Assembly: GCA_947472765.1 (NCBI GenBank)
Contig: CANJCM010000021.1
Location: forward strand, 1 to 57,670
Direction of reading: 5' to 3'
DNA length: 57,670 bases
DNA from: Opitutia bacterium
Lineage (GTDB): Bacteria > Verrucomicrobiota > Verrucomicrobiia > Opitutales > Opitutaceae
The notes below the pieces were generated by a model. That model was given only the letters and a program-made list of their open reading frames with translations. It had not been told where the DNA came from and searched no databases. Of this stretch, positions 26,980-54,431 are shown piece by piece; within the stretch, counting starts at the first letter, position 1, and the number at the start of each line of letters is the position of its first letter. Position numbers and translations under genes: made by a program.

Positions 26980-27050
26980 GGCGGGTTCGGTGGACCGGCT
27001 GTGTTCGCCGCGAAGACAGCGCAGCCGTAACTCAATCGCGATCCCGTCCT

Positions 27051-27247
27051 GTCATTCTGAGCGCAGCGAAGATTCCATGCGCTCGAGGGAGACTCACGTG
27101 TGCTCAGACTCCGCAGTTGCCTTCGTAGCCCGCTGCGTGAGCAGCGGGACGGCTTTCGGCGAAACGATCAAGGAGTCCCTGTCCTCACGGACAGGGCCAC
27201 GCCCATCCGTTTAACTTCGGAATCCAGGTGTGGATGACCAAGCCTGA
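27051..27247. repeat. GTCATTCTGAG element interrupted by a twin-hairpin element
   Basis: A GTCATTCTGAG element begins at 27051 and reads to GACTCACGTGTG (27102). After 125 bp it resumes as GTGTGGATGACCAAGCCTG (27228). The same element is continuous at 42627-42713. The 27103-27227 insert carries the CCGCTGC-GTGA-GCAGCGG hairpin (from 27125) and the CCCTGTC-CTCA-C-GGACAGGG hairpin (to about 27197). GTGTG flanks the insert on both sides, and GACTCCGCAGTT (27107) faces AACTTCGGAATC (27213) as possible terminal inverted repeats. Confidence 0.75.
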
Positions 27248-41952: not shown

Positions 41953-42401
41953 TCAGAGTGGGACGCGCTGCACTTCCGTCACCCGGCCTTCGTGGAACGT
42001 GATCCAAAGGGTCCAATCCTCAAGGTGGCGGAACATGCCGCCACCCACTGGCTCGGTCACCATCGTGTCCGCGCGGAGTTCCGGACATACACCCGGCGAT
42101 GCCGAACGCCGGCCTGGACGTAGTCGCGATCGGTGGCGTGGAAAGAGCGATAGGTCCACGTGCCTTCGCGAGTGCCGGTGATATCCGCCGTCGCGGGTGA
42201 CAACGGCCGGCCGAGCGCCAGATAGACCATCTCCGGGGTGAAGCCGGGTTCGACGACACCACGCTCGATCTTGTCGCGGGTGGCGGGGTCGAGGGTCGCG
42301 ACGGTCGTGGAACGTTCCTGCAGCCGGGTCGCAAGACTGCTGGCACAGCCGGCGAAAAGGACGGAGGTGAACAGAAGGGCAAAGACAGGGATCGGGCGCA
42401 T
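41953..42401 (-). pseudogene. Lipoprotein with SmpA/OmlA-like fold, frameshifted
   Basis: The frame opening at 42401 encodes MRPIPVFALLFTSVLFAGC with a lipobox (LFAGC) and a BamE/SmpA-like pattern (VEPGFTPEMVYLALGRP, GTWTYRSF), then stops at 42057. A second frame, shifted by one base, continues with PELRADTMVTEPVGGGMFRH and WTLWITFHEGRVTEVQRV to a stop at 41953. Joined near 42078-42090 (GTCCGGAAC on the minus strand) these give a complete small lipoprotein, so a single base seems to be missing. It is either a recent pseudogene or a sequencing error. Confidence 0.7.
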
Positions 42402-42872
42402 ACCCCTTGGACCGCAGGCGCCGAACAGCGTTGCGCGGCAACCGCGGAGAAATCGAGGCCGCGGCGGCGGAATTTACCAGGATTTGTACTGGGTCTCGCT
42501 GCATTGCCCGTGGGCACCCGGGGCGAAACGCATTGATACCCTGATGCCGCAGCAACGCATGCTTCCTGCGCCCGAGGTAGCCCTGCCCGTGAGAGACTGT
42601 GTGAAAGTCGATAAACACCCCTACATGTCATTCTGAGCGCAGCGAAGAATCCATGGTCTCGAGGGAGACTCACGCGTGGATGACCAAGCCTGTCGCTGCG
42701 CTCAGAATGACAGGGTTTTCACCCAATCTCGTGAGGGCAGGGACTGGGTCACCGCTTCGCATTAAGTCGTCCCGCTGCTCACGCAGCGGGCTACAAAGCC
42801 CGCGCAGCGCCGGGGGGTGTCGCTCACCCGCTAACCTGACTGAGCTTAGCGATCGGCGAACCGCCGATCGCC
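42402..42872. other. Gap filled by nested repeat elements
   Basis: No gene. From 42577 to 42795 lies a twin-hairpin element whose first arm is split by a GTCATTCTGAG element. The rest (42402-42576) shows nothing I can name. Confidence 0.65.
42577..42795. mobile_element. MITE-like GTCATTCTGAG element inserted in a twin-hairpin element
   Basis: Bases 42577-42593 and 42736-42743 join to give exactly the first arm of the intact twin-hairpin copy at 54256. CGTGAG occurs at both junctions (42588-42593 and 42730-42735), like a 6-bp target duplication. The 136-bp insert (42594-42729) begins AGACTGTGTGAAA and ends with the complement of AGATTGGGTGAAA, i.e. 11 of 13 matching terminal inverted repeats, and encloses GTCATTCTGAGCGCAGCG..CGCTGCGCTCAGAATGAC. 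No coding capacity. Mobility is inference. Confidence 0.65.
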
Positions 42873-43340
42873 TCACTTGGCCTTCGGCGGCAGCTTGGCG
42901 GACTGCCAGGCGGCGAAGCGCCACTTGCCGTTCTCGCGGCGGTACACGGCGAGAATCGCGAGGTCGTTCTCATTCCGGCCGGTGGCACTCACCGAATAGA
43001 TGAGCGCGTGGGCGGTCATCAGGACGACGTCGGGGGTCAGCGGCACGAAACTGCGTTCGAGATATTCGTAGCGGTCATAAACCGTCGCCTTGCTCACGAG
43101 CGCCTGCATGTACGAAGCCTTGTTGTCGATTTTCCCGCTCGAGTGCGTGTAGTGCAGCACGTCCGAGAAAATGGCATCGAGCCGCGCCTTGTCGGCGGCC
43201 TGGATGGCGGCCACGCGTTCGTCATCGGCGGCACGGACGGCAGCGGTCACTTTTTCGTCGGCCGCCGACACGGTGCTGGCGGCGCGAACGGACACAAAAC
43301 TGGAGAGGAGCAGAAGCAGGGGCAGGAGGTATTTTTTCAT
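42873..43340 (-). CDS. Secreted SnoaL/DUF4440-like protein
   Basis: 155 residues. Signal peptide (YLLPLLLLLSSFVSVRA), a helix of Ala/Asp/Glu repeats (AAVRAADDERVAAIQAADKA), and then the NTF2-like cone of DUF4440: LDAIFSDVLHYTHSSGKIDN, LERSFVPLTPDVVLMTAHAL, NDLAILAVYRRENGKWRFAA. Such domains bind small ligands or act as isomerase-like scaffolds; the role here is not known. Alone in its transcription unit; followed by the repeat-rich gap and divergent from the 43657 gene. Confidence 0.85.
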   Translation of the reverse strand: MKKYLLPLLLLLSSFVSVRAASTVSAADEKVTAAVRAADDERVAAIQAADKARLDAIFSDVLHYTHSSGKIDNKASYMQALVSKATVYDRYEYLERSFVPLTPDVVLMTAHALIYSVSATGRNENDLAILAVYRRENGKWRFAAWQSAKLPPKAK

Positions 43341-50689: not shown

Positions 50690-50962
50690 TTGGATTTTGG
50701 ATGACGATGTCGCTTCGCTCGGTACTCGATTTTGGATTTCGGGAACACCAAACCCCTGAGACATCCCCCATCGCTGTCATTCTGAGCGGAAGCGAAGAAT
50801 CCATTTAGTCGGTGCATCATTCTGCGCGGATTCTTCGCTACGCTCAGAATGACAGAAAATGAAAGAACGCCATCCGGCGGCTACCCGTTTCCGAACGACA
50901 AAAGAGGTGGCCGAGGCAGGGCTCCGGAAATCCAAAATCAAGAATCCAAAATCCAAAATCTT
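50690..50962. repeat. GGATTTT heptads and a GTCATTCTGAG hairpin
   Basis: TTGGATT/TTGGATG heptads (about 50690) and CGATTTT/GGATTTC (about 50725) flank the inverted GTCATTCTGAG element, arms 50774-50802 and 50828-50855 (nearly perfect over 28 nt). AATCCAA/AATCAAG/AATCCAA/AATCCAA heptads follow (50929-50960), the complement of the first unit. The 50597-51028 gap has no gene. Confidence 0.8.
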
Positions 50963-54068: not shown

Positions 54069-54431
54069 ACACCCCAGCGCTGCGCGCCACCCCTCTCCAG
54101 AGGGGATCTTCGGAAAGCGCTTTCTCCGGGTCCCCTCTGGAGCCGGAACCATGCAGTAAAAGCGGCGAATAGCCGCGATGCCGTACTGAAAGCGAACGGC
54201 CTCCCTACTGTATCGCAGTCGGAACTCCGGCCACCTTTCGGTGACCTGTTCCGAATGTAGCCCTGCCCGTGAGGGCAGGGACTTCTCCAACGCTTCGCCT
54301 CACGTCGTCCCGCTGCTCACGCAGCGGGCTACAAAGGCCAACGATTTTAAACCTTTGCGTCCCTTCGCGCTCTTCGCGGTTTTCTACTGAATGGTTCCGG
54401 CTGGAGAGGGGTGCCCGCAGGGCGGGGTGTG
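54069..54431. repeat. Inverted CCCCTCTCCAG elements and nested families
   Basis: CACACCCC..ACCCCTCTCCAG occurs at about 54069-54100 and, on the opposite strand, at about 54400-54431, with a second AGAGGGG/CCCCTCT pair in the first copy. Between them lie the intact twin GTGA-loop element (54256-54333) and a 9-nt array CCTTTGCGT/CCCTTCGCG/CTCTTCGCG (about 54352-54378). The 54006-54541 gap has no gene. Confidence 0.75.
54256..54333. repeat. Twin GTGA-loop hairpin element, best copy
   Basis: TGTAGCCC then CTGCCC-GTGA-GGGCAG at 54256-54281, and the opposite arm with GCTGC-TCAC-GCAGC ending GGGCTACA at 54333. Outer TGTAGCCC / GGGCTACA match as inverted ends, while the inner stems differ but stay paired. 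Confidence 0.85.

Follow-up and report, generated by a model that had tools for sequence, protein, structure and literature searches.

A short, gene-less element was found inserted at the center of a palindromic, REP-like hairpin in the window, here the whole 57,670-nucleotide stretch of contig CANJCM010000021.1 from an Opitutia bacterium (assembly GCA_947472765.1). The insert, about 138 bp long, is probably a MITE, or non-autonomous DNA transposon, that hits hairpin loops and is moved in trans, and the most likely mechanism is cut-and-paste transposition by a putative transposase that chooses such loops. The element is gene-less; its inverted ends resemble (C/G)AGACNGTGTGAAAA, its interior forms a long hairpin, similar ends occur in its relatives, and a short stretch of the target is directly repeated on either side. 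The target is centered on a palindrome and has paralogous empty sites, and across the copies analyzed, the duplicated 4 bp statistically coincides with the palindrome center, that is, the loop of the struck hairpin.

The first-pass annotation described a 136-bp gene-less insert that splits a hairpin element, with terminal inverted repeats (TIRs) matching at 11 of 13 positions, and both descriptions were confirmed at 42594-42729 (Table 1). The sequence CGTGAG stands on both sides of the insert, and the ends AGACTGTGTGAAA and TTTCACCCAATCT are complementary at 11 of 13 positions. When the window was scanned for inserts of 80 to 199 bp with TIRs of at least 11/13 and identical 6-bp flanks, this was the only place returned. 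The insert, 136 to 138 bp long, leaves no room for a gene, and the single-strand fold of the 136-bp form gave a z value of -7.89. Deletion of the insert with one CGTGAG restored the first arm of an uninterrupted twin hairpin (54257-54283) at all 27 bases and gave 72 of 80 identical positions over that whole paralogue. The exact restoration that had been claimed therefore stands, with the reference arm starting at 54257 instead of 54256. The paralogue is one of at least 11 identical 80-mer copies in the genome (4.97 Mb, 157 contigs), as counted among the 40 scored of 294 candidates. The insertion site lies between two minus-strand reading frames, 42057-42401 (114 amino acids; no Pfam match at 0.001) and 42873-43340 (155 amino acids; DUF4440), and the only Rfam match in the window was a tRNA.

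Table 1. Coordinates of the element, its split target, and the reverse-nested pair in the window
Feature	Position	Strand	Remarks
GTCATTCTGAG copy, itself split (reverse nesting): left part 27050-27102, right part 27228-27246	27050-27246	+	
Twin-hairpin-bearing insert (CTCAGACTCCGCAGTT...AACTTCGGAATCCAG), 125 bp	27103-27227	.	GTGTG flanks 27098-27102 and 27228-27232
Split REP-like hairpin: GTAG head with left stem (GTAGCCCTGCCC)	42577-42588	+	Sequence; head as defined in PMC2817692
Hairpin loop GTGA, left duplicate	42589-42592	+	6-bp reading: CGTGAG 42588-42593
MITE-like element, 4-bp reading (GAGACTG...AATCTC, 138 bp; ends G...C)	42593-42730	.	
MITE-like element, 6-bp reading	42594-42729	.	
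Left terminal inverted repeat AGACTGTGTGAAA	42594-42606	+	Similar ends across the family
GTCATTCTGAG hairpin core (TGTCATTCTGAGCGCAGCG... / ...CGCTGCGCTCAGAATGACA), best-conserved part of the family	42626-42712	.	12-copy alignment; fold
Right terminal inverted repeat, matching at 11 of 13 positions (minus strand: AGATTGGGTGAAA)	42717-42729	-	
Hairpin loop GTGA, right duplicate	42731-42734	+	6-bp reading: CGTGAG 42730-42735
Right stem (GGGCAGGGACT) of the split hairpin	42735-42745	+	
Second hairpin of the twin, CCCGCTGCTCACGCAGCGGGCTAC, intact	42771-42794	+	
Intact twin-hairpin paralogue (within-genome empty site)	54257-54336	+	

The split target is made up of a GC-rich, GTAG-headed palindrome together with its inverted partner (GTAGCCCTGCCCGTGAGGGCAGGG ... 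CCCGCTGCTCACGCAGCGGGCTAC), which is the layout of a REPIN. By the criterion drawn from PMC2817692 and PMC3116915, a REPIN has the GT(A/G)G head of REPs (PMC2817692) and a palindrome, arranged as an inverted pair, and the interrupted target shows all of these. The insert itself is not a REPIN, since its ends lack the GTAG head and it makes target duplications. The genome also holds seven Y1_Tnp genes over the cut-off (L061 to L067), which are possibly RAYTs. GTAGCCC/GTGGCCC heptamers were scattered in four of these seven loci, where a full twin hairpin was not demonstrated. Movement of the element by a RAYT (an IS200/IS605-like Y1 transposase), as for the host REPINs, could draw on these genes and would fit a Y1_Tnp gene that adjoins a TIR end in a Clostridiales MAG, but we consider it highly improbable. 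IS200/IS605 elements, as characterized in PMC2817692, have neither terminal inverted repeats nor larger target duplications, whereas the insert has both, and no TIR was found at one mismatch or fewer in the seven Y1 loci. The Y1_Tnp gene beside the TIR in the Clostridiales MAG was taken to adjoin a MITE remnant and was rejected as the transposase of the element. Among REP-targeting insertion sequences, IS1397 strikes the loop with a 3- to 4-bp duplication. REP hairpins are described as insertion targets for IS of several families (PMC1525189), and IS1397, ISKpn1, IS621, ISPsy8, and ISPpu9 insert into REP palindromes (PMC1525189; PMC8450116), as the window insert does; those are full elements of IS3, IS110, and other families, whereas the window insert is gene-less and occurs in other phyla.

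With the insert as the query, 129 candidates were obtained from its own genome, 40 of which were scored. An alignment of twelve copies showed a near-invariant core and ends that were variable yet recognizable, with an 18-bp extension in five copies. The end pattern AGACNGTGTGAAAA, at two mismatches or fewer, occurred 36 + 39 times in this genome versus 20 + 9 times for the reversed control, and nine inward-facing pairs of ends, the window copy included, lay 128 to 156 bp apart. The GTCATTCTGAG repeat is widespread. The insert was matched in 25 of 95 genomes (own included), and near-full-query matches beyond its own genome were found in G010 and G018, which are of the same genus (among the matches listed, with at most nine candidates scored per genome). 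The end counts were 51 + 55 versus 18 + 23 for the control in G010 and 70 + 58 versus 50 + 28 in G018, and they were near the control in the congener G004 (15 + 14 versus 8 + 10). A pattern of end plus core retrieved ten loci from a species-genome collection: six from Opitutaceae, three from one Clostridiales MAG, and one from Cloacimonadota. The Clostridiales MAG contained 79 + 79 ends at one mismatch or fewer and the Cloacimonadota MAG 3 + 3, each against 0 + 0 for the control. Plasmids of the cyanobacteria Calothrix and Planktothrix (hits H1 to H4) matched the core, with the outer ends absent, and phages gave no match. Core-only GTCATTCTGAG copies also exist, such as that at 50775-50854 of the window, where such ends are absent by eye. 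The first-pass annotation had read the insert as the scar of a transposed non-autonomous element and had concluded that GTCATTCTGAG elements move; this holds for the TIR-bearing form, for which alone movement is demonstrated, and does not extend to the core-only copies. In L113, L118, and other family-level relatives, the same core lay within different inverted ends, GGC(C)GTGT(C/T)TTCAAA by eye, suggesting that the GTCATTCTGAG core is a module common to several MITE families.

The insert resembles bacterial MITEs, as reviewed in PMC10969869, in being short and gene-less, with inverted ends and direct repeats, a capacity to form stem-loops, and many copies, which are dispersed in its own genome and in the Clostridiales MAG. 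MITEs are typically AT-rich and situated in AT-rich intergenic DNA according to the same review, whereas this element strikes GC-rich hairpins at the loop. No published description of the family (its core, its ends, or MITEs in hairpin loops) was found among the papers listed in a search that covered mainly literature outside subscription; the core matched only an unrelated 12-mer and the ends matched nothing.

The target duplication was examined in copies defined as pairs of ends around a GTCATTCTGAG-type core with at least 25 flanking bases, a definition that left out elements such as L205 and L209, and the flanking repeat played no part in the choice. An initial loose pairing gave 381 pairs, many of them spurious. 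The looser set (n = 72) comprised the best non-overlapping pairs with non-redundant flanks in the own-genome, G010, G018, Clostridiales, and Cloacimonadota loci, with the loci of other relatives dropped. The good-ended set, with at most two mismatches per end, contained 43 copies (12 own, 7 from G010, 3 from G018, 20 from Clostridiales, and 1 from Cloacimonadota), drawn from fetched loci that are a subset of the copies of each genome. An exact 4-bp direct repeat stood outside (C/G)AGAC...GTCT(G/C) in 24 of the 43 copies (permuted mean, 2.1; maximum, 8 in 5000), and at least three of the four bases matched in 35 of 43 (permuted mean, 8.7; maximum, 19 in 5000; right flanks shuffled). Exact repeats were present in 6/12 own, 5/7 G010, 1/3 G018, 12/20 Clostridiales, and 0/1 Cloacimonadota copies. 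For the own genome in the looser set, 8 of 23 were exact (permuted mean, 3.1; maximum, 8); this shuffled control is high because the targets there resemble one another. Independent target letters come from L022 (GATC) and from other genomes, with TCCC, TTCC, GAGA, and TCTC duplicated in G010 and ACGT, CCGT, ACAT, GTAG, and others in the Clostridiales MAG.

Other copies, in this genome and elsewhere, thus have both the ends and the flank duplications that the first-pass annotation expected of them. Because the duplicated letters differ in some of these copies, the two repeat families are not simply always fused, a relation that the annotation had named as fatal to its reading. An origin by recombination between repeats, or as an old fused composite, could appeal to the fact that all sequences involved are repeats and to the inverted flanks of L011, which resemble an inversion between two copies. 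The exact duplications of flanks with differing letters, at many sites and in several genomes, together with the existence of uninterrupted paralogues, make an origin without transposition scarcely credible.

Statistically, the copies show 4 bp to be the best reading of the duplication, ahead of 6 bp. In the five exact G010 copies, the left side reads C-N4-C and the right side G-N4-G, and both outer positions mismatch, thereby indicating that the inner four bases alone are duplicated and that the outer bases beside the insert are the ends of the element. The six exact good-ended copies of the own genome have C-N4-G on both sides, which fits either length, so this genome alone cannot separate 4 bp from 6 bp. 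In Clostridiales, the fifth base also matches in 19 of 27 copies of the looser set, which points to 4 bp or 5 bp in that genome. For the window copy, we prefer the reading in which GTGA would be the duplicated unit; the CGTGAG flanks of the first-pass annotation are present as described, and its length of 6 bp for the duplication would give way to 4 bp. The direct repeat fell below three of four bases in 8 of the 43 good-ended copies. By eye, CGTGAG and CGTGCG flank one of these (L008) when the reading is moved outward by one base, and L028 and L075 are damaged on the right side; the loops of L147 and L250 are reverse complements in three of four bases. L011, which has a weaker left end and hence falls outside the 43, has perfectly inverted flanks. 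Such misfits could stem from decay, from a different repair outcome, or from two copies recombining to give an inversion.

The position of the target was also consistent among the copies. Stem complementarity around the 4 bp was 4.05 of 8 positions versus 2.12 at random centers in the same loci, and at least five of the eight positions were complementary in 19 of 43 targets versus 3.9% of random centers. The complementarity peaked at shift 0 (4.05 versus at most 2.88 overall), and likewise within every one of the four groups tested. At the window site, all eight positions are complementary, CCCTGCCC(GTGA)GGGCAGGG. When flanks were permuted within genomes, the complementarity was barely lower (3.87; maximum, 4.51), because each genome offers only a few kinds of repeat as targets. 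In Clostridiales, the target palindromes are weaker (3.25/8). Restored empty sites had a fold energy of -5.32, only a moderate decrease relative to random 36-mers (-3.05), and 7 of 43 fell in the lowest 5%. Palindrome centers are thus well supported as targets, and palindrome targeting is general; we infer recognition of a folded loop.

An ordinary sequence-specific MITE that recognizes CTCACG/CGTGAG and makes a 6-bp duplication is an unlikely explanation. The hairpin would then be incidental, since many CTCACG of this genome lie in repeats. Most of the 12 own good-ended copies do lie in GTGA/TCAC-type sites, with six bases matching in the exact cases, and some sites (the CTCGCTCACGCTCGCGG type) are poor palindromes. 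However, L022 sits in CGATCG, other letters are struck in G010, mostly at good palindrome centers, and in Clostridiales, at weaker ones, and the 6-bp length fails in the five exact G010 cases.

Among described models, the closest comes from IS1272 (IS1182 family), for which a structure-dependent transposition was put forward in PMC5678879. In that paper, palindromes are targeted, as they are here (at least five of eight stem positions complementary in 19 of 43 targets), and a hypothetical pathway c predicts the loop-only duplication that we observed; IS1272 is reported there to replace the stem-loop, whereas the window element keeps the stem. Stem-loop replacement of this kind, with the matching flanks as mere palindrome remnants, is quite improbable for our element, even though IS1272 also has 16-bp inverted ends (same paper), flanks are inverted instead of direct in L011, L147, and L153, and the TIR-bearing genome G018 holds IS1182-type transposase genes over the family cut-off. 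Direct duplication of the loop is seen in all the exact cases (24 of 43), the window site among them, which corresponds to pathway c, the alternative outcome of that model; the stem at the window site is intact, and comparison with the paralogue 54257-54336 suggests that no stem base was lost. In addition, a match to IS1182 transposases was found in 21 of 57 genomes (own included) and exceeded the cut-off in four, G018 among these, but our ends at two mismatches or fewer occurred in none of 30 IS1182 loci (0/30), 18 of which were also scanned at four mismatches or fewer. The IS1182-like genes of relatives have other ends. L169, the G018 gene that was the best with readable ends, is flanked by different inverted repeats, and L167, from another genus, has GGGGCTGTTGCCCAAA ends with TCAT on both sides. 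A search for DUF772 gave no match in G095 or G010 and two matches in G096, where these ends are absent.

The transposase with the same ends that the first-pass annotation proposed to look for was not found, nor was an autonomous element, among the matches listed in the own genome, relatives, and viral contigs. This absence is weak evidence because the assemblies are fragmented and some of the match lists are partial. The 75 ends of the own genome formed eleven inward-facing pairs less than 4 kb apart, nine of them MITE-sized. As an autonomous candidate, C66:20415-22568 was rejected, with two mismatches at both ends and a left end that belongs to a short core copy; it encloses a 460-amino-acid reading frame that is porin-like by eye. 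Likewise, C21:41136-42729 was rejected, with its left end inside a reading frame and its right end being that of the window element. Viral contigs gave 0, 2, and 6 matches to three patterns and no paired ends. The exact end CAGACNGTGTGAAAA was matched in 8 of 387 genomes of the phylum, once each, versus 3 for the reversed control, a count that excludes the own copies, whose end is in G. Among 198 genomes around G095, more than one match was found only in G095 and G462 (1 + 4), and the five G462 loci contained short or one-ended elements. An empty site in relatives was another check that the annotation proposed. No orthologous one was found with a 1451-bp query in 95 genomes (own included; four candidates scored per genome), and the empty sites are within-genome paralogues. 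The query matched 35 of the 95 genomes, mostly in the DUF4440 gene or in repeats; a stretch of the other neighboring gene was matched in G016, and a few other genomes gave short stretches.

In the proposed mechanism, a transposase acting in trans, which would be of the DDE type given the inverted ends and the short duplication, may bind the ends and excise the element. It would then find a REP-like hairpin, which may be single-stranded or extruded as a cruciform, and join the ends of the element at the loop with a stagger of 4 bases, the length of that loop; gap repair would leave the loop duplicated. A broader proposal, which we hold tentatively and at somewhat less than even odds, is that a cross-phylum MITE superfamily with (C/G)AGACNGTGTGAAAA ends and the GTCATTCTGAG core reads DNA shape, such that the transposase attacks both strands at the boundaries of the loop in a hairpin or cruciform and the duplication is the loop itself. 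If true, this would provide natural evidence for the loop-duplicating pathway c, drawn as a possibility in the IS1272 model of Wan et al. 2017, and would account for nested elements gathering in REP/REPIN hairpins. The finding itself links two anonymous repeats as mobile elements that insert into one another, and it offers natural sites for testing whether a transposase can recognize DNA loops that have been extruded.

The hairpin that receives the element appears to be mobile as well. At 27050-27246 of the window, the nesting is reversed, and a GTCATTCTGAG copy is itself split by a twin-hairpin-bearing insert (Table 1). Eleven end pairs of this second type were detected in the own-genome loci fetched, two of them with a common end; eight are exactly 124 bp and one is 125 bp, all enclosing a twin hairpin. 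This insert and the second-type pairs indicate that the recipient hairpin is itself carried by a repeated element, so the twin hairpin that received the first element apparently rides on a repeated, mobile element. As GTAG-headed twin hairpins are carried by mobile-looking repeats, the families nest in one another. Second-type copies in L011, L050, and L052 sit in palindromes resembling GTCATCTG...CAGATGAC, and a copy in L059 does so less clearly.

Several further observations concern these repeats. A second MITE-like family, TTGGATTCCGAAGTT...AACTTCGGAATCCAA, of about 124 bp and with the twin hairpin inside, was seen in L011, L021, L050 to L053, L059, and L060. Identical twin hairpins lie within a longer repeat, with both flanks in common, at 54180-54400 of the window and in L032, L033, L037, L039, and L041, and some copies of this longer repeat are located at contig ends. 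L148 and L149 (G010 contigs C1 and C182) are contig ends that have one MITE in common and diverge within it, possibly through strain variation in which other DNA was inserted into the MITE.
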